A DNA stretch of 64,000 bases, taken from assembly GCF_024138675.1 (NCBI RefSeq), contig NZ_CP090959.1, positions 3,646,001 through 3,710,000 on the forward strand, read 5' to 3'. How positions within the stretch are numbered: the stretch's first letter is position 1; each line of letters opens with the position of its first letter. This DNA comes from Simiduia sp. 21SJ11W-1 (GTDB lineage: Bacteria > Pseudomonadota > Gammaproteobacteria > Pseudomonadales > Cellvibrionaceae). The notes under the pieces are model-generated. The model was not told where the DNA came from and ran no database searches. It was given only the letters and a program-made list of their open reading frames with translations. Both the position numbers and the translations under genes were made by a program. Below are positions 1 to 39,092 of this stretch, one piece after another.

Positions 1-361
1 CTGGGATGCCCCCACCCGTATTCCGAACGCCGCAGGCTACATGAAAGGCGTGGTGAATATTAGGGGCCTTGTGATCCCCATTATCGATTTACGCATTTTA
101 TTTGGCGTTGGCGAGCCCACCTACAACGCCACCACGGTGGTGGTGGTATTGGCGATTCACACAGCCCAAATCGATCGCACCATGGGCTTTGTGGTAGATG
201 CGGTGAGTGATGTGCTGGATGTTGATGCCGAGAAAATCAAAAAAAATTGCAGCCTTAGCGGCACTGTGTCTGAAGCCTATATTCGTGGGCTTGTGAATTC
301 AGGTAAAGACGTCGTGACGCTGCTCGAAATTGAGCGCCTGATCAGGCTGGATAGGGAGTAA
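1..361 (+). CDS. cheW: CheW chemotaxis coupling protein, 5' end outside window
   Basis: CheW is an SH3-like scaffold that joins the kinase CheA to chemoreceptors at the cytoplasmic array. The window opens inside the gene: frame 2 is open from the first base (W-D-A-P-T-R-I-P...), so the ATG at 41 is internal. The visible 119 residues hold the typical CheW segments GVVNIRG, VIPIIDLR and the GFVVDAVSDV strand. The first 241 bases are almost identical to part of the other cheW at 35168-35701 (2 mismatches, at 154 and 231), after which the two abruptly diverge. The gene ends 4 bp before the next cheW-like start, so they are one operon. A cheA probably lies just upstream, by analogy with the second cluster; this is inference. 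Confidence 0.93.
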   Translation, partial: WDAPTRIPNAAGYMKGVVNIRGLVIPIIDLRILFGVGEPTYNATTVVVVLAIHTAQIDRTMGFVVDAVSDVLDVDAEKIKKNCSLSGTVSEAYIRGLVNSGKDVVTLLEIERLIRLDRE

Positions 362-364
362 ACC

Positions 365-865
365 ATGACAGAAGCCTCACATGAGTACCTCACATTTCTA
401 TTAGGTGACGGCGAGTATGGCGTAGATATTCTCTGCGTACAGGAAATCATGGTACTCACACCCACAACGGAAATTCCAGGCGTACCAGACTACATAAAAG
501 GCGTGATTAATCTGCGCGGCGTCATTGTACCCATAGTGGATTTACGCAACCGCTTTGGCCTGCGGGAGAAACCTTACGATGCCACTACCGTCGTGATAGT
601 GCTGCGCACCCAGCAAGCGGGTCGCAATGTGGTGCTTGGCATAGTGGTAGACGCCGTATCGGAAGTCTACAAGCTCTCGGATGCCGATTTAAAAACCGCA
701 CCGGATTTTGGCGAAGCCATAGACAGCCGTTTTATACACTCGCTGGCTGCCATTGAAGATCAAATAATCGTATTGCTAGACACCCACAAATTGCTGGATG
801 TGAAAGAGCTCTACAAGGTTACCCAGCGTGCCGTACCCGCGGCAGAACTTGGAGGCGCTGCATGA
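365..865 (+). CDS. cheW: CheW-like coupling protein
   Basis: A second CheW-domain protein of 166 residues, normal length for the family. It shows the paired motifs [16 protein letters not shown] and [13 protein letters not shown], and is clearly diverged from the preceding cheW. Start ATG at 365 follows GGGA in the end of the previous gene. The stop overlaps the receptor start as ATGA at 862-865, a sign of translational coupling. Two different CheW proteins beside one receptor may allow mixed arrays or receptor-specific coupling (inference). It could also be a CheV-like protein without receiver, but no receiver domain is present. Confidence 0.92.
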
Positions 866-3639
866 ATGCAGAGCAAGTGGCATTGGTGCGCAAGGGTTGG
901 AGCCAGCTGGCGCCTCATGCAGAGCGCGCATCGAACGTATTTTTGGAAACCGTTGTTAAGCACGACCCAAGCCTTAGCCACCTGTTTGAGGGTTCGATTA
1001 CAGAACGCGGTGCAGAGCTCGTTGAATCACTCGACACAATAATTTCAGCACTGGATGACGAAAAAGAATTAGCAGCGCAGTTTATGAACATCGGCCAGCA
1101 ATACACACCCTACGGTGTATTGCCTGACCACAGCCCAGTAATAAAACGCTCGCTGATGGAAACACTGGAAGAAATACTGGGCAAAAAATTTGATGACGAT
1201 GCATACCTGGCCTGGAGTGCATTTTATAACCAAGCAACCGACATATTGAATTCAATCGACGCGCAGGAAGAAGTCGCCGCCGATGAAACACCCGAAGAGG
1301 ACGATACAATGGCAAAGTCTGGCGACAACGATGGCCTGAAGCTGTTAGAGAGCGCAATTAACAATACGCTAACTGCAATCATGATGGTTGATAGGGATCT
1401 GGTGATCACCTATGTCAATAAAGCAACCATGGCGCTGTTTCGTAAGCACGAGAAAACCTTCCAGTCTATTTGGCCTGGTTTCTCGGCATCGGAAGATTAC
1501 ATGATAGGCAAGTGCATAGACGACTTTCATAAAAAGCCAGAGCACCAGCGACGGATACTTAACGACCCATCCAACCTGCCTTACCGGACAGACATTCAAG
1601 TGGCAGATCTCATTATTGAGCTGAATGTATCTTCAATTATGGGCGATGACGGAAGCTACATCGGCTGCACGTTGGAGTGGAACGATGTTACCGCAATCCG
1701 CGAAACAGAAGACCGTGGGGTTCGATTACAAGGCGCGGTAGATCAATCTACCACCGCCCTCATGATGGTTGATCGAAACTTTGAAATTACCTACATGAAC
1801 CAGGCAAGCCTCAAGCTACTTAAAGAGCACGAAGCGGTATTTCAGAAAAAGTGGCCCACCTTCAGAGCAGACGAGTCCTTCATGATGGGCGCCTGCATTG
1901 ATATGTTCCATAAAAATCCCGCGCATCAACGAAAGATGCTGGATGACCCTTCCATATTGCCTTACACCACCGACATTCACATTGAAGATTTAACCTTCTC
2001 GCTGGGTGTATCAGCCATTTATTCACGCACAGGCGACTACATAGGCAACTGCCTGGAGTGGAGCGATGTAAGCGAGCTGCGTAAGCGCCAGTTGGAAGTG
2101 GGCAGGCTAAGCTCTGCCGTAGAAGGCATGACAACCAACCTGATGATGGCAGACACCAAAGGCAACATTGTCTATATGAACCCCTCGGTTGGACAAATGC
2201 TGAAAAAGCGCGAGGCAAAAATACAAACTGTGCTGCCCTCATTCCGGGTAGATAAAATTGTGGGCACCAACTTCGACTCCTTCCACAAAAACCCGGCCCA
2301 CCAGCAAAACCTGTTGGGCAACCCCGACAACCTTCCCTACCAGAATGACATCGCACTCGCGGGCTTGGAGTTTAACCTCACAGCTATTGCACTGCGCGAC
2401 AGCGATGGCAAGCATGTGGGTACGGCCGTTCAGTGGGTAGACAATACAGAAGAAAAAGATGCTCAGCGCCAAATCGGCGCGCTGATTAACGCGGCGATTG
2501 AAGGCAATCTGGATAAGCGCATAGATACCTCAAGCTATGAAGGCTTTATGAAGGATCTGGGCGATGGTATCAACAAGTTGATGGATACCATTGTTGAGCC
2601 CGTTAACAATACCATCGACATCATCCAGTCCCTTTCCCAGGGTGACGTCAGCCGCAATATGGATGGAGAATACGGCGGTCAGTTTTTGGCGCTTTCCAGT
2701 GCTATTAACGAATCCATGAATAACCTGCGCAACATGGTGTCCGAGATCCGCTCGGCTTCCAACAATGTGTTCAGTGCTGCCCGCGAAATTGCAGAGGGCA
2801 ACAACGACCTCAGCCAACGCACAGAAACCCAGGCATCAAATCTTGAAGAAACCGCCTCCGCCATGGAGGAACTTACCACCACTGTGCAACAAAATGCTGA
2901 AAATGCCAGCGAAGCCACCAAACTCGCAAGCGGAGTGATGGATAGGGCCAGCAACGGTGGCACAGTGGTTAAAAGCGCTGTGCAAGCCATGGAAGACATC
3001 AATCGCTCCAGCCGCAAAATCTCAGACATCATTGGCGTAATTGATGAAATTGCCTTCCAAACCAACTTGCTGGCGTTGAACGCCGCCGTTGAGGCCGCCC
3101 GCGCCGGCGAACAAGGGCGGGGCTTCGCAGTAGTAGCAGCTGAAGTGCGCAATCTCGCACAACGCTCCGCCGCCGCCGCCAAGGAAATCAAAGGCCTGAT
3201 TAACGACAGCGTAGAGGCCGTAGGCAAAGGTAACAAACTGGTAGACGAAACCGGCCAAACTTTTGGTGAACTGGTTGAGGCGGTAAAGGAAGTGGTGGCG
3301 ATGATCTCCGATATCGATTCCGCCAGCAAAGAGCAAGCCGCCGGCATTAATGAAATCAGCCAGGCCGTGGCACAAATGGATGAAATGACACAGCAAAATG
3401 CCGCACTGGTAGAAGAGGCATCCGCATCCAGCCGCGCCATGGAAGATCAGGCCCAACAGCTGCTCGAACAGGTAAGCTTCTTCAGTACCGGGGAAGAAGA
3501 CACTCAGGTTGCCCAGGCCAGCCCTCGCACCAAAACCACTGCGCGCAGGCCTGCCAACGGCGCTGCCGCCCGGGCACAAAGGCCCGCCCGCGCGGGTGGC
3601 CAAGCTAAAGCATCAGATGAGGAGTGGGAGGAATTTTGA
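862..3639 (+). CDS. Soluble chemoreceptor: globin-like domain + 3 PAS + MCP signalling domain
   Basis: Methyl-accepting chemotaxis protein of 925 residues without membrane segments, so a cytoplasmic receptor. Residues 1-130 follow the single-domain globin pattern ([46 protein letters not shown]), but the position of the proximal heme histidine (LG.rH..YGV in globins) is Tyr81. Residues about 158-525 are three PAS-like repeats, each with an MMVDR-like strand; all three contain an FHK.P.HQ motif. A HAMP-like linker (530-640) leads to the MCP helical hairpin, with tip [20 protein letters not shown] near residue 729. The C-terminal EWEEF resembles the CheR/CheB tether pentapeptide. Start ATG has GGAGG 6 bp upstream. 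Likely senses gas, redox or another cytoplasmic cue; the ligand is unknown. Confidence 0.93.
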
Positions 3640-4484
3640 GCCCAGGCGCAAACCCCCACGAGCTGACTGAAGGAGACTTTCGCTATTTATGCGAACTCGT
3701 ACGCAGTGAAACCGGCATAGTTCTGGGTGAACGGAAACGCGAGATGGTGTATCGCCGCTTAATGCGGCGCATACGCGACCTGAAGCTTCCTTCATTTGCA
3801 GCTTACATTGCATTATTAAAAGCAGGAGATAAAAACGAGCTACCCGACTTCATAAACTCCATGACAACCAACCTCACCAGCTTTTTCAGGGAGGCTCATC
3901 ATTTCGAATTTCTGGCTAATACCTTTGTGCCGGAGCACAGGCAACAGTTTGGCCACAGCCGGCGGTTGCGCGTTTGGTCTGCCGGGTGTTCAACGGGTGA
4001 AGAGCCTTACAGCATCGCCATGACACTGCTCAACGCAGGCAGCTGGGGCGATTGGGATATGCGTTTACTTGCAACGGATCTCGATTCCGATGTGCTGGCC
4101 AAAGCCTCAAGCGGCCTTTATGCAATGGACAGGCTGGAAAAGGTAGACCAAAAAATTACAGAGAAGTTTTTTCTTCGCGGGCGAGGCGACGCAGCAGGAA
4201 AAGCGCTTATCAAGCCTCACATAAAGGAATACATAAGCTTCAAGCAACTCAACCTGCTTACCCAAAGCTGGCCTTTCCGCGGCCCCTTCGACGTAATATT
4301 CTGCCGCAACGTGCTGATCTATTTCGACAAAGAAACACAGGCACAAATAGTAAACCGATTTCAGGAAAAGCTACGCCCAGGTGGCTACCTAATGCTGGGC
4401 CATAGCGAAAGCATTGGCAAGCATGTGCGCGGCCTGGAAATGGTTGGGCGCACGATATTCCGCCGTTCACGGGTGGCCACATGA
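3636..4484 (+). CDS. cheR: Chemoreceptor glutamate methyltransferase CheR
   Basis: CheR transfers methyl from S-adenosylmethionine to receptor glutamates for adaptation. The N-terminal helical domain ([16 protein letters not shown]) is followed by the SAM fold with [21 protein letters not shown] and [11 protein letters not shown]. Start: TTG at 3636 overlaps the receptor stop (TTGA) and has GGGAGGA just before it; an in-frame GTG at 3624 would add four residues. The length, about 282 residues, matches CheR. It ends in an ATGA overlap with cheD. The receptor immediately upstream ends in EWEEF, a plausible docking tail for this enzyme. Confidence 0.95.
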
Positions 4485-5125
4485 GGGGCCTTGAAGCGCA
4501 TCACGAGCAACCGCTGGCCGGATTTGAAGCGATAAATCGCTACTGGGACCAACGGCGTAACCAGGTGGTCGCAAAGATATTGCCCGGTGAATTCTACGTA
4601 AGCCTTCAAGATGAAATGATTGCCACCACACTTGGCTCCTGTGTGTCTGCCTGTATATGGGACGACATCAATCACGTTGGCGGCATGAACCATTTCATGC
4701 TGCCAGAAACAGAACAGCAGGCCCACCAGGTTACTTGGGGCAATATACCCAGCCAGGCTACTCGTTATGGCAATCACGCCATGGAGCACCTGATAAACAG
4801 CATTTTAAAGGCCGGAGGCAAGCGTGCCCACTTAAAGGCAAAAATTTTTGGCGGCGGCAAGGTGCTAAACCAGTGTGTAGACGTTGGCAGTCGCAATGCG
4901 GATTTTGTTGTGAAGTACTTGCACGATGAAAACATACCGATTTTGGCAGAAGACCTATATGGCGACTATGCTAGAAAGGTTCTATTTTCGCCCATTAGCG
5001 GTCAAGCTTTTCTAAGAAAACTCTATAGTTTCAATAACAATACCCTAGCACAGCGCGAACAACGCTACGGCATGAAGCTGAAGACTGAACGTCTAGAAGG
5101 ACAAGTGGAGTTGTTTAATGACTGA
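4481..5125 (+). CDS. cheD: Chemoreceptor glutamine deamidase CheD
   Basis: CheD deamidates receptor glutamines to glutamates, creating methylation sites. The 214-residue protein carries the family motifs TTLGSCVSAC, with catalytic Cys54, and GGMNHFMLP, with catalytic His71, plus AKIFGGG. Its start overlaps the cheR stop (ATGA) and its end overlaps the cheB start by 8 bp. The protein ends in EGQVELFND; the membrane MCP-like protein two genes downstream ends in GDIELF, so the two may share a docking peptide (inference). No CheC is seen in the window. Confidence 0.95.
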   Translation: MRGLEAHHEQPLAGFEAINRYWDQRRNQVVAKILPGEFYVSLQDEMIATTLGSCVSACIWDDINHVGGMNHFMLPETEQQAHQVTWGNIPSQATRYGNHAMEHLINSILKAGGKRAHLKAKIFGGGKVLNQCVDVGSRNADFVVKYLHDENIPILAEDLYGDYARKVLFSPISGQAFLRKLYSFNNNTLAQREQRYGMKLKTERLEGQVELFND

Positions 5126-6182
5126 GACCAAGATAAAAGTACTTATAGTGGATGACTCTCGGCTCGTCAGGGACATTTTACGCAGCATATTCCTTATGGA
5201 TAAATCCATGGAGGTTGTGGGATCCGCCGTAGATCCGATAGATGCCCGGGAAAAAATAAAATCACTAAACCCTGATGTCATCACCCTCGACATAGAAATG
5301 CCGAAGATGGACGGCCTGACCTTCTTGAGAAACCTCATGAGGTTAAGGCCCACGCCGGTTGTGATGATTTCCACACTCACCGAAAAGGGTGCAGACGCCA
5401 CATTGCAGGCGTTGGAGCTTGGCGCAATAGATTTCATCGCCAAACCAAAAATCAAGATTGAGAGCGAATTTCCAGCCCTTGCCGATGAAATACTGAGAAA
5501 AGTGCGCTGCGCAGCGCGGGCCAAGGTAGCCCCCTTTCAACCGCCGGAAAAGCCCTCAGCGCCTGTGGCGGTGACTGCCGGCGGCCTGGCCTGCGACCTG
5601 CTCGCTATTGGCGCGTCAACCGGCGGTACAGAAGCCATAAAAACCGTGCTGCTGGCCCTACCCGCCAACGTGCCGCCTATTGTTATTGTGCAACACATGC
5701 CTCCGGGGTTTACTCAATCTTTCGCGAACCGATTGAACGAACTGTTGCCCTTTGATGTCATTGAGTTCTCAGGCCGCAACGAGCCGCTAAAGCCCGGCGT
5801 TGTATACCTTGCCAATGGTGCTGAACACATGATTGTTGAAACCCACCGCGGCCTGCTTACGGCCTCTGTGGACGACGGCGCTCCGGTAAACCGGCACAAG
5901 CCTTCTGTAGATGTGCTGTTTCGCTCTGTGGCTAAACTGCCTGAGTTGCGCACTATTGGCGTCATCCTTACAGGCATGGGAATGGATGGTGCAAAAGGCC
6001 TGCTAGACATGCGCCAGGCAGGAGCTCACACCATCGCACAAGACAAAGAAAGCTCTGTGGTTTGGGGTATGCCGCGCATTGCCTCTGAGATAGGTGCTGC
6101 TGAGCTCGTGCTCCCCCTCAACAAAATCGGCACAGCAATTGGCAACCGGTTATTTGCAAGCCGCCGGGGAGAAGCACTATGA
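5118..6182 (+). CDS. cheB: Chemotaxis response regulator / protein-glutamate methylesterase CheB
   Basis: CheB removes methyl groups from (and can deamidate) chemoreceptors when phosphorylated by CheA. Residues 1-125 form a receiver with acidic pair Asp12/Asp13, phospho-acceptor Asp58 in [10 protein letters not shown] and the lysine of IAKPK. After a short linker the methylesterase domain shows the triad Ser167 (IGASTGGTE), His193 (QHMPPGFT) and Asp290 (GMGMDGAKG). The 354-residue length is typical. It overlaps cheD by 8 bp and the next gene by 4 bp (ATGA), so the operon is tightly coupled. No CheY or CheZ gene lies in this cluster within the window. Confidence 0.96.
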
Positions 6183-7372
6183 ACCATTGGTTAACCGCAG
6201 CTAAACCCTTTGCACCTTTCGCCGCCGCTGCGTTAGTAGGGCTTGCGCTTAACATACTCTGGCCTTCTGCCTGGATGGGCTGCCTGAGTGTACTGGCGCT
6301 GCTGGGATGGCACTTATTGGGGCGCGTCAATGGAGAATCAGACGCTCAAAGTAAGCCGCTTGAAGAGGAGCTCAATCACAGTGAGATTGCCGATATTTTG
6401 CAAGAAATTGGCAATCAAGTTGATCACATCATGCTTGAGGAAACAGGCAATATTGAAGACAGCGTAAACCGCATTCAAACACTGGTAGCGGAATCTATTG
6501 TGATTTTGCAGCAAAGCTTTAAGAAAATACTTAGCCATACCGAGGTTCAATCCAATTCTGCACAAGAGCTTGTCGCGCGCATAACAGGCCAGGATGAGCA
6601 CGACAAAGACAAACTCCTCATACGCGATTTTATTGAAAAAACAGATGAAATAATACAGCACTATGTAGATCTTCTGGTTCTGGTAAGTGAAAAAAGTGTT
6701 GGTGCCGTTCACAAGATATCCGACATGACCCGCGACATGGAAAGCATGTTTTCAATACTTGATGATGTACAAAAACTTGCTGCACAAACAAATCTACTTG
6801 CGCTGAATGCAGCCATAGAAGCGGCTCGTGCAGGCGATGTTGGCCGAGGCTTTGCGGTAGTTGCCGGCGAGGTAAGATCACTTTCCGAAACATCATCCCA
6901 ACTCAATGAGCAGATTCGTAAAAACGTAGAAGCTGCAAAATCAAGAGTAAGCGAAGTACGCTCGGTAGTGGGAGAGATAGCAAGCCTGGACTTAAACGCG
7001 GCTATTGAAGGAAAGGTTTCCATTGATGAAATGCTTTCAAACATAGAAGAACTGAATCAAGACACGCAGGTAATCCTTCACGAGCTAAACGACAAAAGCA
7101 AGAGTATTCACAAAGAGGTATCTGACTCCATAAGAGCACTCCAATTTGAGGATATTATTACCCAACTATCTGATCACATTGGCCAAAGGCTAACACACAT
7201 TAAATCCATATCAAAAACAGCAGAGGTGGACGGAAATGCACTAAAAGATCAACGTACACTGGTTGGCATTAGAGACAGCATAAGATTTCAACGTGAAAAT
7301 TTTACCAGCAAGAAAATAGAGCAAAAGGTCATGCAATCCTCTATGGATGAAGGCGACATAGAGCTATTTTAA
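6179..7372 (+). CDS. Membrane-anchored MCP-like signalling protein with a CheZ-like C-terminal motif
   Basis: A 397-residue protein with two N-terminal hydrophobic helices (about 9-27 and 33-50) joined by a very short loop, so there is no periplasmic sensor domain. The rest is cytoplasmic and has an MCP tip: [20 protein letters not shown] and [14 protein letters not shown]. The hairpin is short, and no WEEF-type tether is present. Near the C-terminus [17 protein letters not shown] resembles the D-x-x-x-Q helix of the CheY phosphatase CheZ; that function is only inferred. It ends GDIELF. It could be an array organiser, adaptor or phosphatase rather than a true receptor. Start overlaps the cheB stop. 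Confidence 0.85.
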
Positions 7373-7383: not shown

Positions 7384-7674
7384 ATGGCAATAAGATACGA
7401 AACAAATGGTGATACACTCATCATCCATCTGGATAATAAATTCGACTTTGACTCAGTAGAGGAATTCAGAGACACATATAAAGGAACCACACCTAAGGCT
7501 GTGACCGTAAATTTTGCCAACACAAGCTATATGGATAGCTCAGGCCTTGGCATGCTACTGAACATGCATCGCACACTGGGCGATGCAACAACCATTACGC
7601 TTGCCAATTGTCAGCCTGCAGTAAAAAGAATTTTGGCAATCTCGCGCTTTGAGAATTTTTTCAGTGTAACCTGA
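7384..7674 (+). CDS. STAS-domain anti-sigma factor antagonist (HsbA-like)
   Basis: Single STAS domain, 96 residues, of the SpoIIAA/HsbA type. The loop YMDSSGLGMLL has the conserved serine (Ser53 by alignment with SpoIIAA) whose phosphorylation state switches partner binding. It lies 11 bp after the MCP-like gene and 1 bp before a receiver-PP2C-kinase gene that would phosphorylate and dephosphorylate it. In Pseudomonas aeruginosa the equivalent pair HsbA/HsbR links FlgM/FliA and a diguanylate cyclase to motility; the same role here is inference from domain order. Confidence 0.88.
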   Translation: MAIRYETNGDTLIIHLDNKFDFDSVEEFRDTYKGTTPKAVTVNFANTSYMDSSGLGMLLNMHRTLGDATTITLANCQPAVKRILAISRFENFFSVT

Positions 7675-7675: not shown

Positions 7676-9334
7676 ATGAATATTCTAATCATTGAAGATG
7701 CCTTGGCAGATCTTGATCTTCTGGCAAATACTTTAAAAGACTTTGGCTACCCCGTATCTGCATTCGAAAGTGGTGAAGCTGCCATAGAGCACCTTTTAGC
7801 CAGCGGTGAAAAACCAGACCTGGTACTTACAGATATCGGCATGCCAGGCATGGATGGCTATGAAGCCGCAAAGAAGATTAAGTCTATATTTAGAGACGGC
7901 CACATACCCATAGTATTTCTTACCGCAAGAAACGACATCAAAACACTAAAAAAATGCTTGAAAATTGGTGACGATTTTATAAGCAAGCCATTGATTCCGG
8001 AAATATTAGAAGCAAGAATTGCCGCACATCTTCGTACTAGCGGGCTATATAGAACGCTAAAAAACCAAGCACAGGAGCTACAGACATTCCGCGCCAGAGT
8101 AGATGAAGAGTTTCGTATAGTTGACAGAATCTTCGAAAACTACATTAGCGGCAGCACCGTTGGATTTCCTAATGTCAGACTACACATGTCAGCCATGTCT
8201 GCTTTTAATGGCGATGTTCTTTTATCAGCCCTAGGACCTGCCGGTAGCTTCTACATAATGATTGGCGACGTTACTGGTCACGGCCTGCCGGCTGCAGTTG
8301 CAGCTATCCCTACCTACAGCACATTTAAAACCATGGCCACTAAGGGGTTGCCGGTAGGCACTATTGCCTATGAGATCAACGAAGGCCTCATTTCGGTTAT
8401 GCCGGCAGATATGATGATGGCCGCACTGATCATGCGCATTGACAAATCTGGCCAAGAAGCGACCGTCTGGAGTGGCGGCATGCCACCTATGATTGTACTA
8501 GACAAAAACAGCCATATTACACAGCGAATTCACGCCACACATGCCCCATTATCTATGCTGCCGGGTAAAAAGTTCTCACGTGACATACAACATTACACAT
8601 TCGACCTAGGCGATAGAATTTATCTATACACAGACGGCATTGAAGAAGCAGAGGGCGAATTCGGCACAATGTTTGGTGAAACCGAACTTGTAAACTCTCT
8701 GGTTGGCTCTGTAGATCCATTTGAAAGCCTACTGAATGATGTAGAGAACTTTCGCTCTGGTGAGAAGCAAAATGATGATGTAACACTACTTGAATTTACT
8801 TGCAAACCTCTTGAGGCATGCCTAATGACAAGTATTCAGAAAGCAAAAAACATCATACCCTGGCACTTTGAAACCACACTCACCAAAGATCACTTTATTA
8901 ATGCCGAGCCTGCACCAGCGTTAGCCAAAATGCTGGGATCTGTAAATGGAATTGAGCGACATCAGGATATTATTTCCACTGTGCTTTCTGAGCTCTACGC
9001 GAACGCACTAGATCATGGGCTATTGAAGCTAGACTCTACATTAAAAGAAGAGGACGACGGATTTTTTCAGTTCTACGAGCTAAGAAAGCAACGCCTGAGT
9101 GAGCTAAAAAATGGATGGATAAAAATCACTCTTGATTGCTATAGCACAGATGATGGCGCCACCGTATACATAACCCTGCAAGACAGCGGTGAGGGTTTCG
9201 ACACCCAAAAAGTCCTCAATCATTGCGGCAGCCAATTGCTCTCAGGGCGCGGCATCGCTTTAATTAAGTCCCTCGCAGATGAGCTGAAGTACAGCAATAA
9301 CGGTACCTGTGCCAAGGTTCGCTTCGACATTTAA
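7676..9334 (+). CDS. Receiver - PP2C phosphatase - HATPase partner-switch regulator (HsbR-like)
   Basis: A 552-residue cytoplasmic three-domain protein. Residues 1-120 are a receiver with Asp53 in LTDIGMPGMDG and the SKP lysine. Residues about 160-390 are an SpoIIE-type PP2C phosphatase with GDVTGHGLPAA, WSGGMPP and YLYTDGIEEA. Residues about 400-552 are a GHKL kinase of the anti-sigma type, with N-box ELYANALDHG and GEGFD/GRGI boxes. It probably dephosphorylates and phosphorylates the adjacent STAS protein according to its own receiver state. The architecture is the same as P. aeruginosa HsbR. It is the last gene of the operon; an 80-bp gap follows. Confidence 0.9.
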   Translation: MNILIIEDALADLDLLANTLKDFGYPVSAFESGEAAIEHLLASGEKPDLVLTDIGMPGMDGYEAAKKIKSIFRDGHIPIVFLTARNDIKTLKKCLKIGDDFISKPLIPEILEARIAAHLRTSGLYRTLKNQAQELQTFRARVDEEFRIVDRIFENYISGSTVGFPNVRLHMSAMSAFNGDVLLSALGPAGSFYIMIGDVTGHGLPAAVAAIPTYSTFKTMATKGLPVGTIAYEINEGLISVMPADMMMAALIMRIDKSGQEATVWSGGMPPMIVLDKNSHITQRIHATHAPLSMLPGKKFSRDIQHYTFDLGDRIYLYTDGIEEAEGEFGTMFGETELVNSLVGSVDPFESLLNDVENFRSGEKQNDDVTLLEFTCKPLEACLMTSIQKAKNIIPWHFETTLTKDHFINAEPAPALAKMLGSVNGIERHQDIISTVLSELYANALDHGLLKLDSTLKEEDDGFFQFYELRKQRLSELKNGWIKITLDCYSTDDGATVYITLQDSGEGFDTQKVLNHCGSQLLSGRGIALIKSLADELKYSNNGTCAKVRFDI

Positions 9335-30295: not shown

Positions 30296-31180
30296 ATGCA
30301 AGACATCTTAAGTTTCGCATTAATTGATTACGAAGGTTACCGCCTGACGGTATTCGGCCTGCTGAAAATGCTGGCGGTGCTTATTGGCGGAGTGATTGTT
30401 TCGAGTATTGTGCAGCGCTCCATCATGCGCCTGGCCCAACTCAAGCGCACCTTCGATGCGCGCGCGGCCTATTCGTTCTCGCGCATTGTGCACTACGCAA
30501 TCATGACGCTGGCCATTATTTTTTCACTCTCGGTGGCCGGTTTCGACTTTACCAAGCTCGCCATTATTGCCGGCGCACTCTCTGTGGGCATTGGCTTTGG
30601 TTTGCAAGGCATCGCCAATAATTTTATTTCCGGCATCATCATGTTGTTTGAGCGCAACATTAACGCCGGCGATGTAGTGGAACTGCAATCAGGCACCTTT
30701 GGCACCATAAAAGAGATCAACGTGCGCTCTACGCTCATCAACACGCCAGACAACATGGACGTGCTGGTGCCGAACTCTGAATTTTTATCAGGCCAGGTCA
30801 CCAACTGGACGCTGCGCGAAGGTGTGGTGCGTTTTCGCATTCCCTTCGGTGTGGCCTACGGTACCGATAAAGACAAAATGCGCGATATCGTATTGAACGC
30901 CGCCAACGCCCTACCCACCACAGTGAACGAAGTACCCAGGTATGAAACCCGTGTTTTTATGACGGGCTTTGGCGATTCAAGCCTGGATTTCGTACTGGCG
31001 GTGTGGGTTTCAGACGACGCCGCCAAACGCCCTACCACCACAAAATCAGATTACCTCTGGACGCTCGAAAGCGCACTCAAACGCAATGGCTTTGAAATTC
31101 CCTTTCCGCAGCGTGATTTGCACCTGCGCTCGGATTTTCGCACCCAAGATAAAAGCGGCACATTGGAAACCGGGGAATAA
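30296..31180 (+). CDS. MscS-family mechanosensitive channel
   Basis: 294 residues: three membrane helices, the pore helix AIIAGALSVGIGFGLQGIANNFISGIIMLFE (glycine/alanine-rich TM3), then the beta-domain NAGDVVEL...GTIKEINVRSTLINTPDN and the alpha/beta C-domain. This is close to E. coli MscS in length. The channel opens on hypo-osmotic shock. It is the last gene of the rimK run and is followed by a hairpin. Confidence 0.93.
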   Translation: MQDILSFALIDYEGYRLTVFGLLKMLAVLIGGVIVSSIVQRSIMRLAQLKRTFDARAAYSFSRIVHYAIMTLAIIFSLSVAGFDFTKLAIIAGALSVGIGFGLQGIANNFISGIIMLFERNINAGDVVELQSGTFGTIKEINVRSTLINTPDNMDVLVPNSEFLSGQVTNWTLREGVVRFRIPFGVAYGTDKDKMRDIVLNAANALPTTVNEVPRYETRVFMTGFGDSSLDFVLAVWVSDDAAKRPTTTKSDYLWTLESALKRNGFEIPFPQRDLHLRSDFRTQDKSGTLETGE

Positions 31181-31199
31181 GGCCGGCGAGCGCTAAAAT

Positions 31200-31223
31200 G
31201 TGGGCACATCTTGCTGTGCCCGC
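31200..31223. terminator. Hairpin between convergent mscS-like and methyltransferase-like genes
   Basis: GTGGGCACA-TCTTGC-TGTGCCCGC, nine pairs including one G-T, directly before the stop codon of the minus-strand gene. No T-run. Confidence 0.5.
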
Positions 31224-31949
31224 CTAGCCAGAGCGCCTGCAAACATACACGCTGTTAATGGCATCTACCTGCTGAAACGGATTATAAAAGCTCACCAGGT
31301 GCGCGCTTACCTCACTGAATACCTCGCCCAATAGTGCGCTAAACTTTTCATCGGGCGCATTTTGCGACCACATGGCAAACACACCGCCCGGTGCCAGCTG
31401 GCCTGCCATGCGTGAAAGATTTTCCACGCTATAGAACTCGGCATTTTGTGCGTTTAAAAATTCGCTTGGCGAGTGATCAATGTCCAATAATATTGCATCG
31501 AACTGACGCCCCGGCGTGGCCGGGTCGAAGCCCTTGGCCGGATTCATCGCCAAGTCAAAAAAATTACCCAATACAAAGCGTGCACGGGCATCGGCATTCA
31601 ACACTTTGCCTAGCGGCACCAGCTCCTGCTCGTGCCAATGAATTACCGTGGCCAGTGCATCAACCACCAACAGCTCGCTCACACGGGTATGGGCCAGCGC
31701 CGCCACAGCCGTATAACCCAGGCCGAGCCCGCCCACCACCACACGGGCATCATCGCGCGCAAGCGCCGCCAGCCCCAAATGTGCCAGCTGCTCTTCGGCC
31801 TCTACAAACATGCTGGACATCAAAAATTCTTCGCCAAGCTTCACCTCCCAAATGGGCTCTGGGCCCAGCACGGGAATAACCCGCTTGCGTAGCGATATTT
31901 CACCCAAGGGGGAAGGCTGACTGTCGATTTCTTCAAAGAGTGGCGGCAT
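31224..31949 (-). CDS. Spermidine-synthase-like SAM-dependent methyltransferase-fold protein
   Basis: 241 residues of the spermidine synthase-like Rossmann fold: RVVVGGLGLGYTAVAAL (nucleotide loop), LLVVDALATVIHWHEQEL, FDAILLDIDHSPSEFL and LAPGGVFAMWSQ. The substrate and whether it transfers aminopropyl or methyl groups are unknown; the N-terminal spermidine synthase tetramer domain is reduced. Divergent from the BLUF gene. Confidence 0.75.
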   Translation of the reverse strand: MPPLFEEIDSQPSPLGEISLRKRVIPVLGPEPIWEVKLGEEFLMSSMFVEAEEQLAHLGLAALARDDARVVVGGLGLGYTAVAALAHTRVSELLVVDALATVIHWHEQELVPLGKVLNADARARFVLGNFFDLAMNPAKGFDPATPGRQFDAILLDIDHSPSEFLNAQNAEFYSVENLSRMAGQLAPGGVFAMWSQNAPDEKFSALLGEVFSEVSAHLVSFYNPFQQVDAINSVYVCRRSG

Positions 31950-32020
31950 AAGGCGTCTCGATAGTGGTCACTTGGCTGAACCGGCACCAATACAAGCTGC
32001 CAGAATATGAAAAATTCCTA

Positions 32021-32039
32021 TTATGCATTAATTGCATAA
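32021..32039. promoter_or_regulatory. Palindrome upstream of the BLUF gene
   Basis: Perfect inverted repeat TTATGCA-TTAAT-TGCATAA in the AT-rich part of the divergent promoter region. Possible regulator site; no matching regulator is known. Confidence 0.4.
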
Positions 32040-32056
32040 AAAATATTGGCGCTGCA

Positions 32057-32104
32057 GGCAAAATGCCCGGGCTTGAAATAGCGGCTTTGCCCGCTATAGT
32101 TTTT
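32057..32104 (+). promoter_or_regulatory. Attenuator-like leader of the BLUF gene
   Basis: Hairpin ATAGCGG-CTTTGC-CCGCTAT at 32078-32097 is followed by AG and five T, the form of an intrinsic terminator, and ends only about 20 bp before the BLUF ATG. An upstream GGCAAA (32057-32062) can pair with TTTGCC (32086-32091), which would break the terminator stem. No plus-strand gene precedes it, so it is not the terminator of an upstream gene. Confidence 0.45.
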
Positions 32105-32125
32105 ATCTCGCCTATGGAGTTCACC

Positions 32126-32548
32126 ATGTTACTGACTCGCCTTGTGTATACCAGCACTATATCCAGTGCCTTTACCAGTGATGATCTGGAAAAAATCCTT
32201 GAAATATCACGCAAAAATAATCCAAAAAAAGGCATTACCGGCATGCTGTTTTTTAACCAGAAATATTTTTTGCAGTGCCTGGAAGGATCACGCCAGGAGG
32301 TGAACGCCACCTACCATAAGCTCGCCAAAGATGCCCGCCACACGAACATCATCATACTGGATTACAAGGAGGTGGATTTTCGTGAATTCAGCGCTTGGTC
32401 TATGGGCTATCTGCCGGAATCCAGCTTAACGGCCCCCATCATTTTGAAGTACTCGGGCTTAAATGCCTTTAATCCCTACGAAATGTCTGGCGAAAGTGCC
32501 CACAAAATGATGCTTGAATTACATGGCAACGCCAACCAAAGCACTTAA
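32126..32548 (+). CDS. Stand-alone BLUF blue-light photoreceptor (PixD-like)
   Basis: 140 residues: one BLUF domain with short C-terminal helices. BLUF proteins bind FAD and switch hydrogen bonding in blue light. With ATG 32126 (GGAG 6 bases upstream) the key residues fall at the same numbers as in Synechocystis Slr1694/PixD: Tyr8 (LVYTS), Asn32 (SRKNNP), Gln50 (YFLQCLEG), Trp91 and Met93 (FSAWSMGYL). There is no output domain, so it must act through a partner. It is the closest plus-strand gene before a cheA-cheW-receptor unit, 473 bp away, which suggests but does not prove a phototaxis role. Confidence 0.92.
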   Translation: MLLTRLVYTSTISSAFTSDDLEKILEISRKNNPKKGITGMLFFNQKYFLQCLEGSRQEVNATYHKLAKDARHTNIIILDYKEVDFREFSAWSMGYLPESSLTAPIILKYSGLNAFNPYEMSGESAHKMMLELHGNANQST

Positions 32549-33021
32549 CCCGGCTGCCTATACCCTGCAGGCGATACAAGCTGCTTGAATAGGCCTGATT
32601 CTGGGGAAGCCTAAAATTTTCTTATATTAATTTACTGTAAGAACTCCCTAGTTATTACCGCGCCCACGGTAACTGCCCGCAATCAGCCTTTAATTTATCG
32701 CAGTTTAACGATGTTAAGCCTGCCTAAAATGATTGACACGCCAATCTACGGCGTACCTGCATCAAAATTACGCCATCTTGCCCAAACTGCAGCCTATTGC
32801 GAAATAAGTTTCTAAAGCTACGCTTAGTTTTGCCGAAAACCTGAAGCGCAATTGTGCATCACCGCTTGCATAAAATTATTGTAGAAGTTGCTGTCATATC
32901 ACCTAGCAGTGCGGGAACTATCCATTCCATAACCAGATTATCGGGCCGCACCGGTATTTTGCACTAGCGCCAGTTGACTCGCGGGTTTGCCAAGGTCGGG
33001 CAGGGAAACAGGAGCTTTTGT
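32549..33021. other. 473-bp intergenic region before cheA
   Basis: Just after the BLUF gene is a weak stem TAGGC...GCCTA followed by AAAATTTTC, a possible terminator. The stretch 32640-32800 is AT-rich with no clear site. The sigma-28-like promoter at 32813-32839 is the main recognisable element, leaving a leader of roughly 170 bases before cheA. Confidence 0.6.
32813..32839 (+). promoter_or_regulatory. Sigma-28 (FliA) type promoter for cheA-cheW-mcp
   Basis: TAAAGCTA, 11 bases, GCCGAAAA. The consensus is TAAAGTTT-N11-GCCGATAA, so 13 of 16 bases match with exact spacing. Position about 180 bp before the cheA start fits a flagellar class III operon. Confidence 0.65.
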
Positions 33022-35166
33022 GTGTCTATCGATTTAAAACAATTTCACCAAACCTTCTTTGAGGAAAGCCTTGAAGGGTTAGATGTGATGGAGCAGTCGC
33101 TGCTCCAGGTACAAAACGAAGACGGCGACAACCCAGAGCTCATTAATACCATCTTCCGCGCAGCCCACTCCATTAAAGGTGGCAGCGGCACCTTTGGTTT
33201 TGCCGACATCGCAGAATTCACCCACCTGCTGGAAACCCTGCTCGATGAAGCCCGCGATGGCAAGCGCACCCTCGATACCGAGGCCATCGACCTGTTGCTG
33301 AAATCCACCGATTGCCTGCGCGCCATGGTGGCGGGCCACATGGCCGATGCGCCCGCTGCGGCCAACATCACCGATGAACTTGCGGCAGGTTTTAAAAAGC
33401 TTCTGGCACAAGCACCCGGCGCTGCAGGCGCGCCGCAAGCGGCCCCCACGCCATCGAGCACACCATCGGAATCCAGCAGCACCCGGGTTTGGAATATCAG
33501 TTTCATTCCCAACCGCGACATATTATTGAGCGGCAACGAGCCGGCACGGATTTTTCGCGAGCTGGCCGAACTGGGCGAATGCCTGGCGCTGGCCGATGAA
33601 TCACAACTGCCCGAGCTGAACCTGCTCACCCCCGATGAATGTTTTTTACAATGGCAACTGTGGCTGCGTACAGCCGCGGCCGAGGCCGATATTCGCGAAG
33701 TGTTTGAGTGGGTAATAGACGATTGCACACTCACTGTCCGCCAGGCAGCCGATGCCGAGTGGCCGGGCGAAGACGCACAGGCCGACACGCCCGTTAGAGC
33801 CCAAAATAATTCAGAGCAATCGGCAGTGAGCGAAGTCACTGCGCCCGCGCAAGCTGCAACCGCTCAGGCGACAGACGCGCAAGCTAAAGCCACAAGCCCT
33901 GCCGCGAGCCCGCCTCAAGGCCCTAAGAAAGCCGCGCCAGCCGCAGAACCCGCCCAGGCGGTAGCCAGCCCCCAGTCGTCGTCTATTCGGGTGGGCATCG
34001 ATAAGGTAGACAGCCTTATTAACCTTGTGGGGGAGCTTGTGATTACCCAATCCATGCTCTCGGAATTGGGTAACGATTTCACCATGGATCGCGTAGACAG
34101 GCTCAACAACGGGCTTGAGCAGTTGATGCAAAACACCCGCGAGCTGCAAGAGAGCGTAATGCGCATTCGCATGCTGCCCATCAGCTTTGCCTTTAACCGC
34201 TTCCCGCGCATGATTCGCGATTTAAGCCAGAAAACCGGCAAGCAGGTAGAGCTGAAACTCAGCGGCGAGCAAACGGAACTGGATAAAACCGTGATGGAAC
34301 AAATCAGCGATCCGTTGGTGCACCTGGTGCGCAACGCCGTGGATCACGGGCTGGAACCGCCGGCTGAGCGCGAACAGGCGGGCAAAGCCGCCACCGGCAA
34401 CCTGCACCTGAACGCCTTTCATCAGGGTGGCAACATTGTCATTGAAATTTCCGATGACGGGCGCGGCATCAACGGCGAGCGGGTGCTGCAAAAAGCCATC
34501 GAAAAAGGCCTGGTGCCCGAGGGCACAGAGCTTAGCCAGCAACAGATTTTTGATTTGATATTCGAGCCCGGCTTTTCCACCGCAGCCACCGTGAGCGACA
34601 TCTCCGGGCGCGGCGTGGGCATGGATGTGGTTAAACGCAACATCAAATCCTTAGGCGGGCGCATTGAGGTGATCTCGGCCCAAGGCAAGGGCTCCACCTT
34701 CCGCGTGCACCTGCCCTTAACCCTTGCCATTCTCGATGGCCAGCTGGTGCGCGTGGGTGGCGAAACCTACGTCATCCCCCTGGTGACCATTGTGGAATCG
34801 CTGCAAATGCAGCCCGACTCCATCAACTATGTGTCGGGCAATATCCCTATGTATCGCCTGCGCGAAGACAACGTACCGCTGGTGGCCATGAACCAGCTGT
34901 TCGATGTAGAGACAGACCCCACCGCGGTAGATAACCAATTGCTTGTGGTGGTAGAAGCCGACGGTCAAAAACTGGGCCTGCGCATCGACGACTTACTGGC
35001 CCAACAGCAGGTGGTGATCAAGAGCCTGGAAAGCAACTACAAGCGCATTGAAGGTGTATCCGGCGCCACCATTTTAGGCGATGGCTCAGTGGCGCTGATA
35101 TTGGATGTCACCGGCATTATGAACCTGGCGCTCAGCCAGCGCGGCAGCAACCCGAGGGCCGCGTAA
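33022..35166 (+). CDS. cheA: Chemotaxis histidine kinase CheA
   Basis: 714 residues. Hpt domain with phospho-acceptor His49 (AAHSIKGGSGTFGF); a variable region about 160-260 that may bind response regulators; Ala/Pro-rich linker; dimerisation helices from about 325 (VDSLINLVGELVITQSML); ATPase domain with HLVRNAVDHGLE, DDGRGI and GRGVGMDVVKRN; CheW-like regulatory domain at the end. GTG at 33022 has GGAG 7 bases upstream and gives the usual CheA start (SIDLKQFHQTFFEES); an upstream ATG at 32974 lacks support. Followed directly by cheW (2 bp). Confidence 0.97.
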   Translation: MSIDLKQFHQTFFEESLEGLDVMEQSLLQVQNEDGDNPELINTIFRAAHSIKGGSGTFGFADIAEFTHLLETLLDEARDGKRTLDTEAIDLLLKSTDCLRAMVAGHMADAPAAANITDELAAGFKKLLAQAPGAAGAPQAAPTPSSTPSESSSTRVWNISFIPNRDILLSGNEPARIFRELAELGECLALADESQLPELNLLTPDECFLQWQLWLRTAAAEADIREVFEWVIDDCTLTVRQAADAEWPGEDAQADTPVRAQNNSEQSAVSEVTAPAQAATAQATDAQAKATSPAASPPQGPKKAAPAAEPAQAVASPQSSSIRVGIDKVDSLINLVGELVITQSMLSELGNDFTMDRVDRLNNGLEQLMQNTRELQESVMRIRMLPISFAFNRFPRMIRDLSQKTGKQVELKLSGEQTELDKTVMEQISDPLVHLVRNAVDHGLEPPAEREQAGKAATGNLHLNAFHQGGNIVIEISDDGRGINGERVLQKAIEKGLVPEGTELSQQQIFDLIFEPGFSTAATVSDISGRGVGMDVVKRNIKSLGGRIEVISAQGKGSTFRVHLPLTLAILDGQLVRVGGETYVIPLVTIVESLQMQPDSINYVSGNIPMYRLREDNVPLVAMNQLFDVETDPTAVDNQLLVVVEADGQKLGLRIDDLLAQQQVVIKSLESNYKRIEGVSGATILGDGSVALILDVTGIMNLALSQRGSNPRAA

Positions 35167-35167
35167 C

Positions 35168-35701
35168 ATGAACAGCCAGACAACCCCCGAACTCATCGCC
35201 GTACCCGAAGTGCACACCGCAGCCCAAGATGCCTACACCGGCATCGATTTTATCAGCACCGGTGATCAGTACCTCACCTTTTACCTGGGCCGCGAGCTCT
35301 ACGGGGTAGACATTCTAAACGTTACCGAAATCCGCGGCTGGGATGCCCCCACCCGTATTCCGAACGCCGCAGGCTACATGAAAGGCGTGGTGAATATTAG
35401 GGGCCTTGTGATCCCCATTATCGATTTACGCATTTTATTTGGCGTTGGCGAGCCCACCTACAACGCCACCACGGTGGTGGTGGTATTGGCCATTCACACA
35501 GCCCAAATCGATCGCACCATGGGCTTTGTGGTAGATGCGGTGAGTGATGTGCTGGATGTTGATGCCGCGAAAATCAAACCGGGCATTCACCTTACGGGCA
35601 CTGTTTCCAAAAGCTATATTCGCGGCTGCGTTAATTCAGAAAATGAAACCATCACATTGCTCGAACTCAGCCAAATTATACAGCTGGATAGGTCTGGCTA
35701 G
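35168..35701 (+). CDS. cheW: CheW chemotaxis coupling protein
   Basis: 177 residues, CheW fold with an N-terminal extension of about 30 residues. Motifs: YLTFYLGRELYGVDIL, GVVNIRGLVIPIIDLR, GFVVDAVSDVLDVD. Bases 35338-35578 are almost the same as 1-241 of this window (239 of 241), but the 3' ends differ strongly. It couples the CheA just upstream to the quadruple-PAS receptor 65 bp downstream. Confidence 0.96.
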   Translation: MNSQTTPELIAVPEVHTAAQDAYTGIDFISTGDQYLTFYLGRELYGVDILNVTEIRGWDAPTRIPNAAGYMKGVVNIRGLVIPIIDLRILFGVGEPTYNATTVVVVLAIHTAQIDRTMGFVVDAVSDVLDVDAAKIKPGIHLTGTVSKSYIRGCVNSENETITLLELSQIIQLDRSG

Positions 35702-35766
35702 AAAAACACAATCCTATTACCCATAAATTTTACTAGATATTCTGCACCACTTACGAGGAACACAAG

Positions 35767-38346
35767 ATGAGTAAATCCAGCAAAGCTCAAGATACAACCG
35801 AGCCGCAAGACGAGGCTGTGCAGATTGATATATTGAATGCGCAGGTTGAAGCCATCAGCAGATCCCAGGCGGTAATTGAGTTCAACATGGACGGCACCAT
35901 TATTACCGCCAATGAAAATTTCACCAACGCCGTGGGTTACGAACTGGGTGAAATACAAGGCAAACACCACAGCATGTTTGTCACAGCGAAAGACAAAGCG
36001 AGTGCTGCCTACAAACAGTTTTGGGAGAAATTAAACCAAGGTAAATTTGATGCAGGCGAGTATAAGCGTATAGGCAAGGGTGGCAAAGAGATCTGGATAC
36101 AAGCCACCTATAACCCCATACTAGGTAAAGACGGAAAACCCTTTAAGGTGATTAAATTTGCAACCGACATCACCGAACAGAAACTGAGCTACGCCAATTA
36201 TTCGGGCCAATTGGCCGCCATCAATAAAGCGCAAGCAGTCATTGAATTTAATATGGACGGCACCATCATCACAGCCAATAAAAACTTCCTGGATACCGTG
36301 GGCTATACGCTAGATGAAATCAAAGGCCAACACCACGGCATGTTTGTAGAAGAAAGCTACCGTCAAAGCCAAGCCTATAAGAAATTCTGGCAGGAACTCG
36401 GCAAAGGAAACTATGAGGCGGGCGAGTACAAACGCATTGGCAAGAACGGAAAAGAAATCTGGATACAGGCCTCCTACAACCCCATTATGGATATGGATGG
36501 CAATCCCATGAAAGTGGTGAAGTACGCCACAAATATCACCGAGCAGAAGCAGCAGTTTGCCAATTTTTCCGGGCAAATGCAGGCCATTAGCAAGGCCCAG
36601 GCGGTAATCGAGTTCAATATGGATGGCACCATCAGAACTGCAAATGAAAACTTTCTGAAAACCCTGGGTTATTCTTTAGACCAGATTAAAGGCAAGCACC
36701 ACAGCATGTTTGTGGAGCCAGGCTACAAGAACAGCCAGGAGTATAAACAGTTCTGGGCAAACCTTAATGAAGGAAATTACGATGCAGGGGAGTATAAGCG
36801 CATTGGTAACAACGGCGCTGAAATCTGGATTCAAGCCTCTTACAACCCCATCCTTGATCCGGAAGGCAAGCCCTATAAGGTGGTAAAATACGCAACCGAC
36901 ATTACCGAGCAGAAGAATTTGAATGCGGATTTCTCCGGCCAGATTCGTGCCATCAATAAATCTCAAGCCGTGATTGAGTTCAATATGGACGGCACCATCA
37001 TCAAAGCCAACGACAACTTTTTAAATGCCGTAGGCTACTCTTTAAATGAAATACAAGGCAGGCACCACAGCATGTTTGTGCTGCCAAAACAGCGTGACAG
37101 CCAAGCCTACAAACTTTTTTGGGAAAAGCTTAACCAAGGGAAATTTGACGCTGGCGAATACCAACGCGTAGGCAAGAACAATAAAACCATTTGGATTCAG
37201 GCTTCCTACAACCCCATTCTTGATGCCGAGGGCCGCCCGTCCAAGGTGGTAAAATACGCAACCGACATCACCGAGCAAAAAGAGCTGCAAGCCATGATTG
37301 AACTTGTACTTGCTGATGCAGGCAAGGTGGCTGAATCACTTTCGGCGGGTGATTTAACCGTCACTATGGATAACGAGTACCAAGCGCAATTCCAGGCGCT
37401 GGCCTCTGCCATGAATAGCTCTATGAGTAATCTTACCGACATGGTGCGCAAAATCCGGGATGCCTCAAATAACGTATTCAGCGCTGCTCGCGAGATCGCC
37501 CAAGGCAATAGTGACCTTAGCCAACGCACTGAATCGCAGGCGTCAAATCTTGAAGAAACCGCCTCGGCTATGGAAGAGCTCACCACCACCGTGCAGCAAA
37601 ATGCCGAAAACGCCACCGAAGCCACACGGCTTGCCAACGGCGTAAAACAGCGTGCCAGCAACGGCGGCAGTGTAGTAAGCAGCGCCGTTCAAGCCATGGA
37701 AAACATTAACCGCTCAAGCAAGAAAATTGCAGATATTATTGGCGTGATTGATGAAATTGCCTTCCAAACCAACCTGCTGGCATTGAACGCAGCCGTTGAG
37801 GCCGCCCGCGCGGGTGAGCAGGGCCGGGGGTTCGCAGTAGTTGCCGCAGAAGTGCGCAACCTCGCGCAACGCTCGGCCGCCGCCGCCAAGGAAATCAAAG
37901 GCCTGATTAACGACAGCGTAGAGGCCGTTGGCAACGGCACAAAACTGGTAGACGAAACCGGGCAAACTTTTAGCGAACTGGTAGACGCCGTAAACGAAGT
38001 GGTGGCCATGATTTCCGATATCGACTCTGCCAGTAAGGAGCAGGCGGCGGGCATTAGTGAAATCAGCCAGGCAGTGGCACAAATGGATGAAATGACGCAG
38101 CAAAACGCGGCCTTGGTAGAAGAGGCTTCCGCGTCCAGCCGCGCCATGGAAGATCAAGCCCAGCAGCTGCTACAGCAAGTCAGCTTCTTCAATACAGGTG
38201 ATGAAGAAGAGGCCCCAACCTCCGTTAAAGACAATGGCGCAACAAGGCCCAAGCTCAATGGTGCAGCCAAAACCAATGGGCGGGTGCCACCCCGGCACAG
38301 GCAAGCGGCCCAACAAGCCGCTGCAGATCAATGGGAAGAATTTTAA
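35767..38346 (+). CDS. Soluble chemoreceptor with four tandem PAS domains (BdlA-like)
   Basis: 859 residues, no membrane segments. Four PAS-PAC units repeat with an exact period of 366 bp (units begin at 35851, 36217, 36583, 36949), each with [16 protein letters not shown] and an EIWIQA/TIWIQA strand and ending TDITEQK or TNITEQK. This resembles P. aeruginosa BdlA (two PAS plus MCP), doubled. The signalling hairpin has the tip [20 protein letters not shown] near residue 661 and is close to that of the receptor at 862-3639. The C-terminus QWEEF is a CheR/CheB tether. GAGGA lies before the ATG. PAS ligand (heme, FAD or none) not evident. Confidence 0.95.
35851..37314 (+). repeat. Four tandem 366-bp PAS-coding repeats
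   Basis: The same reading-frame position recurs at 35851, 36217, 36583 and 36949, i.e. exactly 122 codons each, with no insertion or deletion between units. Each unit codes for one PAS-PAC module. Likely arisen by unequal crossing-over. Confidence 0.9.
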
Positions 38347-38374
38347 AAGGTTAAATTGGTTACAACCCACGATT

Positions 38375-38402
38375 ACAGGCTACCCGGGTAGCCTGTTTTT
38401 TT
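38375..38402 (+). terminator. Strong intrinsic terminator of the second che operon
   Basis: ACAGGCTACCC / GGGTAGCCTGT, a perfect 11-bp inverted repeat with no spacer bases, followed by T6. It is 28 bp after the receptor stop. Confidence 0.9.
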
Positions 38403-38494
38403 GCGCAGCCTTTGGCTCTAACTTGGAATTCGGCAGACGCTGCAAGTTTCAGCCTGTCGAAAACACCCTACCAGCAACGCTCGCACACAATGGC

Positions 38495-39034
38495 CTATGA
38501 AAACACCACTGCCACTGCCACTGCCACTGCACATATTCCTATGCCTGTCAGTAGCTGCACTAGCATAGGCCAGGCAAATGACTGCACCAGAAATGCGCGA
38601 TGTGGAAATTTTGGGTGATAAAATACATGCACTTTATCACCTGGCTGCACATCAGCTAGCCGATTACCACCCACCGGCCACACGGGAGCGGATTGCATTT
38701 GCGCGCCAATGTATTTAAAGCCCTCAAGGGCATAGACGTAGCACAGCTGCTGCGCAGGTTCCGCTGATGATATTTCTGCTGCTTGCCCTGCTTGACTTTG
38801 ATCTGTGAGATCTGGCGCGGCCCGGCCTGGCGCGGCCCTACCGAGCGCGGCCCGACCGAGCACCACCTGATCAAACCATTCCCTTAAATTTTGCGGCTCG
38901 GTGGGCACAGCCCACTGCACTATGCCAACGGTGTGTGGCCAATGCCGGCGCGTAAGTACCCGAAGCAGGTTCCCCGCACCCAGCGTAAACAACATTGCGC
39001 CAAGCGCACATGACAATATGGCAACCCAAGACAT
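38495..39034 (-). CDS. DUF3592-like two-helix membrane protein with short repeats
   Basis: 179 residues: a hydrophobic helix at each end (WVAILSCALGAMLFTLGAG; FAWPMLVQLLTGIGICAVAVAVAVV) around an extracytoplasmic region with CYVYALEGFKYIGAQ and GDKVHVFYHPKFPHRAFL, the DUF3592 pattern. The middle has three GRAA[LP] units coded by a 15-bp tandem repeat (38814-38858), and the final Ala-Val run is coded by a hexamer repeat (near 38507-38530), so its length may vary between strains. Function unknown. Confidence 0.75.
   Translation of the reverse strand: MSWVAILSCALGAMLFTLGAGNLLRVLTRRHWPHTVGIVQWAVPTEPQNLREWFDQVVLGRAALGRAAPGRAAPDLTDQSQAGQAAEISSAEPAQQLCYVYALEGFKYIGAQMQSAPVWPVGGNRLADVQPGDKVHVFYHPKFPHRAFLVQSFAWPMLVQLLTGIGICAVAVAVAVVFS
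38814..38858. repeat. 15-bp minisatellite, three copies
   Basis: Three consecutive units near GGCGCGGCCCGGCCT, in frame within the DUF3592-like gene and encoding LGRAA/LGRAA/PGRAA. Confidence 0.7.
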
Positions 39035-39092
39035 GTATTTACTTTCACGACTCTTGATTAACTACAACCGGAAATGCGATACATGGGCGGCC

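Follow-up and report, generated by a model that had tools for sequence, protein, structure and literature searches.

Probable recent gene conversion across cheA and most of cheW between two chemotaxis loci of Simiduia sp. 21SJ11W-1

Two chemotaxis loci in the genome of Simiduia sp. 21SJ11W-1 share a tract of 2,556 bp with only 33 differences. The tract is probably the product of a recent interlocus gene conversion, in which an older copy of an F7 operon (locus 2) would have been overwritten across cheA-cheW by the sequence of locus 1. The host genome (G000) is one contig of 3,964,050 bases, and the window is the whole stretch of 64,000 nucleotides that was analysed (G000:C1:3646001-3710000); positions without a prefix are those of the window. 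The tract corresponds to L003:5686-8241 in locus 1 and to 33023-35578 (plus strand) in locus 2. The window holds the right-hand end of the locus 1 copy (1-241, plus strand; cheW codons ~58-137), the remainder being located upstream of it. A sequence-only reading of the window had reported that 1-241 and 35338-35578 are identical at 239 of 241 positions, differing at 154 and 231, and that the left edge lies outside the window. The former was reproduced exactly, and reading upstream revealed a match of 2,556 bp, about ten times longer. The blastn match has an E value of 0 over 2,643 bases at 98% identity, and chance is excluded as the source of the match.

The tract contains all of cheA (714 codons and the stop codon) and continues into cheW up to codon 137. 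It begins at base two of the start codon of cheA (ATG in locus 1, GTG in locus 2), which is also where homology ends. Upstream of this point 86 of 300 bases are equal in an ungapped comparison, which is the level of chance, and little besides a sigma-28-like box is alike between the loci. The left edge carries no information, since homology is lacking upstream of it. The right edge is abrupt and lies inside homologous sequence, between cheW codons 137 and 138. Identity drops at once after position 241, as had been noted from the sequence, although to a lower level (68 of 120 bases, 57%, in 242-361) than the two thirds then given. Within the cheW tail, 53 of the 87 bases in 242-328 equal those of locus 2, and in 362-481 identity is at chance level (24/120). 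The event had also been assigned to the shared CheW core, but this is not its main part, as the whole of cheA is included.

Silent sites show the same edge. The two loci differ by a pS of 0.047 in cheA (pN 0.003) and 0.020 in cheW codons 1-137, and by a pS of 0.588 (pN 0.365) in cheW codons 138-176. The differences in cheA are 24 silent and five replacing ones. These five, one of them the start codon, are the only codons out of 714 that differ in residue; none is located after residue 280, and the dimerisation, kinase and CheW-like (P5) domains are identical between the loci. The small number of replacing relative to silent differences is as expected if purifying selection acts on both copies. 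Outside the tail, the two CheW proteins differ at residues 20 and 134 only, and their cores agree at 116 of 118 positions, as compared to at most 75 of 118 with relatives.

CheA and the CheW core are conserved proteins, and two copies might look alike through nothing more than purifying selection, or through an artefact of assembly. Selection alone is ruled out by the jump at cheW codon 137/138, where silent difference rises from 0.02-0.05 inside the tract to 0.59 just outside it, with about 0.7 in flanking genes compared with the genus mate G002. An artefact would have to explain 33 differences and distinct flanks kept in a single 3.96-Mb contig. We regard both as extremely improbable. A simple recent duplication of the whole of cheA-cheW is likewise ruled out, as the cheW tails are too diverged. 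The proposal of the sequence-only reading, a recent gene conversion or copied segment with a sharp right edge and distinct 3' ends, is therefore borne out by the change in pS from 0.020 to 0.588. Of the two observations it had named as speaking against it, equal silent identity along the whole gene is contradicted by the same values, and equal identity in other species by the CheW core of the relatives.

Five genes flanking the loci have a pS of 0.68-0.76 between G000 and G002; a sixth comparison (o13526m) was left out for an implausible dN of 2.6, probably a frame slip, and pS is quoted for these five, among them MgtE, whose dS is past saturation. The pS of the tract is far below these values, and the tract must therefore be far younger than the split between G000 and G002. 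By this measure the cheW tails are old and the tract is young. The differences within the tract are unevenly distributed. Of those at third positions, 22 of 25 lie left of position 34443 (130 of 5000 permutations as extreme), and the last 1.1 kb holds few differences. Clustering over all sites was equalled in 259 of 5000 permutations, and for the runs between differences 312 of 10000 permutations were as extreme in the longest run and 217 of 10000 in run variance. This hints, only weakly, at more than one conversion event, and the ongoing homogenisation suggested earlier from the sequence is likewise weakly indicated by the clustering.

Judged by its gene order, locus 1 is a complete F7/Che2-type cluster: STAS, cheY, cheA, cheW, cheW, Aer2-like receptor, cheR, cheD, cheB, MCP-signal protein, STAS and receiver-SpoIIE phosphatase. 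The first STAS protein is encoded at L003:5007-5276, with a provisional start codon. The locus 1 genes given by position below are on the plus strand of the window. The tail of the first cheW (codons 138-176, 242-361) is outside the tract and is followed by the second cheW (365-865, PF01584), about half identical to the first (51/110 in the core). The receptor gene (862-3639) encodes globin, PAS, HAMP and MCP signalling domains; the product is Aer2-like, although its score against NF041847, 1102.9 bits, is below the cut-off of 1200. It ends in EEWEEF, and its C-terminal EWEEF fits the pentapeptide x-[HFYW]-x(2)-[HFYW]. Next come cheR (3624-4484, PF01739), cheD (4481-5125, PF03975), cheB (5118-6182, PF01339 and PF00072) and, in the McpA position of the cluster, a gene for a putative mcpA-like MCP-signal protein (6179-7372, PF00015), so named by position and domain. 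A STAS (anti-sigma-factor-antagonist-like) protein (7384-7674, PF01740) and a receiver-SpoIIE phosphatase (7676-9334), the last gene of the cluster, complete it.

Locus 2, in direct orientation to locus 1 and 35.3 kb apart from it, consists of cheA, cheW and a receptor gene. Its cheA (33022-35166, plus strand) has a GTG start with AGGAG 7 nt upstream, as read by eye. The cheW gene (35168-35701, plus strand) appears converted to codon 137 and retains a divergent tail (35579-35698). The receptor (35767-38346, plus strand) has four PAS domains and an Aer2-like signalling domain and ends in DQWEEF. In tblastn searches of positions 31001-40000, cheR, cheD and cheY gave no match at an E value of 1, the best cheB match had an E value of 0.29, the cheW query matched the cheW of locus 2 only, with no second cheW, and the McpA-position query picked up the locus 2 receptor. 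A candidate cheY remnant upstream of locus 2 was unconvincing, having a best E value of 0.042 in a laxer search and lying on the other strand. The F7 gene complement of cheY, second cheW, cheR, cheD and cheB was thus not found at locus 2; the two loci are not equivalent CheA/CheW sets, and locus 2 is better described as a stripped satellite.

A BLUF blue-light sensor gene is located upstream of locus 2 (31964-32548). The four PAS domains of the locus 2 receptor form a 366-bp repeat (35831-37280), 69-83% alike, which is an internal duplication, and an 85-bp repeat, 74% alike, occurs inside a 1267-codon ORF (57331-57415 and 57907-57991 in 55556-59359). The tract itself is a 2.56-kb direct repeat (L003:5686-8241 and 33023-35578) with copies 35.3 kb apart. 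Recombination between them would delete or duplicate the intervening DNA, and structural variants may occur in cultures.

Upstream of locus 2 cheA a sigma-28-like box, TAAAG-N14-GCCGA, is predicted by consensus match at 32813-32840 (plus strand). The boxes preceding locus 1 and locus 2 are equal at 23 of 25 bases. The published sigma-28 form is TAAAGTTT-N11-GCCGATAA (PMC4866697). We scanned 14 of the 16 annotated clusters of relatives, the other two being without cheY in the stretch taken. In five of the 14, a 9/10 box match starts 389-510 bp upstream of cheY; in the other nine the best match was 7/10, and 12 of 560 base shuffles reached 9. One more exact box was found in the 72 kb scanned, at position 13957, not at a che operon.

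The old cheW tail and the similar promoter box that remain at locus 2 in this one strain may be traces of the recipient's earlier homology. Locus 2 probably descends from an older F7-type operon copy with a sigma-28-like promoter, since reduced to cheA-cheW-receptor. Alternatively, cheA-cheW could have been copied recently, by dispersed duplication, to a site with a cheW-receptor pair but previously no cheA, the joining being homologous on the cheW side and illegitimate on the left. This would yield the same tract and the same right edge, and all three genus mates lack cheA-cheW-receptor in the MscS-MgtE interval where locus 2 is located (31180-39093). On the other hand, the left edge coincides exactly with the start codon and is preceded by a distinct ribosome-binding site (by eye) and by the box resembling that of locus 1. 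This is unexpected for a chance insertion but expected of a locus that was already equipped with cheA; such a duplication is quite unlikely. The interval is variable in the genus, containing two-component-like signalling genes in G002 and, in G001 as well as in G003, a single long ORF on the minus strand.

At the thresholds given below, a second copy of the tract genes was seen in G000 only. Among family genomes, 35 of 100 (G000 included) have a CheA match at E <= 1e-150 and seven of 144 a CheW match at E <= 1e-45, and 38 of 390 order genomes have a CheA match at E <= 1e-200 (best two candidates per genome); in each search two copies were seen in G000 only, at thresholds that would miss more diverged second copies. 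Of the genus mates, G001 and G002 lack a CheA match at 1e-150, and G003 has one cluster of the locus 1 type elsewhere (G003:C1, L077), with identities of about 49% in CheA and about 38% in the first CheW. In G002 the peptidase and outer-membrane genes that flank locus 1 are 217 bp apart, and none of the locus 1 genes was matched in 12 kb; in G001 and G003 the flanks are not adjacent and are therefore uninformative.

The donor could also have been an allele of locus 1 that came from another strain and recombined with locus 2; a further variant is that locus 1 was the one replaced from outside. The 33 differences might then be strain differences, and neither locus is at the corresponding site of G002, suggesting that the clusters come and go. 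Against this, no near-identical third copy was found in G000 or the other genomes searched, which represent the host species by one strain, and an outside donor is not needed to explain the data; we consider it unlikely. The data do not point to a mobile element as carrier of the tract, there being no tRNA in the window and no near-identical third copy in G000. Of 72,556 plasmid records, 60 gave a match, with identities of 60-80% and with less than 80% of the query covered in every case.

For conversion within this genome, the direction was judged from CheW. Of 24 CheW rows of relatives, 14 were used in trees and fits; seven second-cheW rows, two rows of G003 and one of G075 were left out. In trees with these 14 relatives the two loci are sisters in both core and tail (tail 100/99), with branches of 0 and 0.018 in the core and of 0 and 0.82 in the tail. 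This sister topology, with short branches in the core and long ones in the tail, suggests that the paralogy of the tails is old and the core young. The different phylogeny of the 3' end that had been predicted from the sequence is seen in the strongly differing branch lengths but not in the topology.

The tails of the two loci agree at 20 of 39 residues; that of locus 1 agrees with G065 at 21 of 39 and that of locus 2 at 13 of 39. When tail identity (39 columns) was fitted against core identity over the 91 pairs among the 14 relatives, the residual of locus 1 (-0.033) was inside the range of the relatives (-0.048 to 0.059), as compared to -0.150 for locus 2. In seven of the 14 relatives one cheW was found in the cluster, and its best tblastn match is the second cheW; its core is as near the second cheW as the first. 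Repeating the analysis on the seven two-cheW relatives gave the same result (branches of 0 and 0.019 in the core and of 0.077 and 0.77 in the tail), apart from a small deviation of the locus 1 tail: its residual of -0.060 is slightly outside the range (-0.039 to 0.030), and that of locus 2, -0.186, far outside. The tail of locus 2 CheW is a clear outlier, which makes locus 1 the likelier donor. From these 39 tail residues we infer that locus 1 was likely the donor and locus 2 the recipient.

Under gene conversion in this direction, the two paralogous, directly oriented operons would have exchanged DNA by homologous recombination over 35.3 kb while their flanks stayed distinct. Between the start codon of cheA and codon 137 of cheW, locus 1 sequence would recently have replaced that of locus 2, possibly through two or more events. 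The left edge falls where homology ends and the right edge inside cheW, beyond which the old tail of locus 2 would have survived.

In their sensory halves, the locus 1 and locus 2 receptors of G000 do not match each other at 1e-5. That of locus 2 matches G021 (63%), G029 (60%) and G065 (59%), and that of locus 1 matches G025 (61%), G005 (60%, in part), G021 (57%) and G065 (56%). Both receptor kinds are found within one F7 cluster in G021 and G065 (genus g19), and in G029 the locus 2 kind adjoins a receptor with a sensory half 37% like that of locus 1. The signalling domains (191 residues) of the G000 receptors are 92% identical to each other and at most 86% to others, with a pS of 0.51, down to 0.35 at the tip; the alike stretches are 2629-2928 and 37336-37635. 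They form a clade (95/88), as do the two receptor kinds of G021 and G065 as sisters (91/94), and grouping the locus 2 receptor with its sensory counterparts in G021 and G065 is rejected for the signalling domain (p-AU 0.005). The two neighbouring receptors of G029 (L074) have signalling domains 97% identical (pS 0.34) and different sensory halves. When entire C-terminal halves are compared, the scores of the locus 1 receptor are slightly higher with G025 (507 bits) and G005 (496) than with the locus 2 receptor (491), indicating that the likeness does not extend beyond the signalling core. It seems that the parts in contact with the array were homogenised at an older stage, or that sensory domains were swapped repeatedly; either would give the same pattern.

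Both G000 receptors end in xWEEF. In Pseudomonas aeruginosa, which has four paralogues each of CheR and CheB, the GWEEF of Aer2/McpB is bound only by the CheR and CheB of its own pathway (PMC7698151). With xWEEF on both receptors and cheR and cheB in locus 1, the two loci may feed one array. The simplest inference from these sequences is one mixed F7 array, to which locus 2 would add a four-PAS sensor and extra CheA and CheW and locus 1 the adaptation proteins; CheA and the CheW core would be interchangeable, and the locus 2 receptor would be methylated by locus 1 CheR. As a broader and tentative speculation, somewhat doubtful as it stands, the array core (CheA, CheW core and receptor signalling tip) may evolve in concert across dispersed or neighbouring F7 sets, the sensory domains and CheW tail being specific to each set and new sensors being plugged into one shared array.

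If the conversion reading is right, the two loci would be a testable case of a satellite receptor set that stays compatible with its parent array without adaptation genes of its own, and conversion may be what keeps both sensor sets connected to one signalling machinery. It would also be a warning that trees based on CheA or CheW can be reset by conversion.

Gene conversion as a process is already known. Dispersed paralogous copies of rRNA operons are held alike by recombination. The concerted evolution of bacterial rRNA operons via gene conversion has been described (PMC6002687), whereas here two protein-coding operons are concerned, one of them partial, and the tract ends inside a gene. The Tlp2, Tlp3 and Tlp4 receptors of Campylobacter jejuni likewise have identical signalling domains with divergent sensory domains, but receptors only are concerned, CheA and CheW not being involved, and "gene conversion" in that paper refers to conversion to a pseudogene (PMC9769880). 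In the available portions of the open-licence literature we found no description of such gene conversion in cheA/cheW or chemoreceptor genes. The order published for the stage 1 F7 cluster, including Aer2/Che2-type systems, is anti-sigma-factor antagonist, cheY, cheA, two cheW, aer2-like, cheR, cheD and cheB, ending with mcpA-like, anti-sigma-factor antagonist and serine phosphatase (PMC7184735). Locus 1 shows the same gene order, whereas a second, stripped cheA-cheW-receptor locus with near-identical CheA and CheW core was not encountered in the available part of that description. Paralogous chemosensory pathways are said to appear insulated from each other in function (PMC7698151); the present loci would represent the reverse, their kinases and coupling-protein cores having become nearly identical through recombination.
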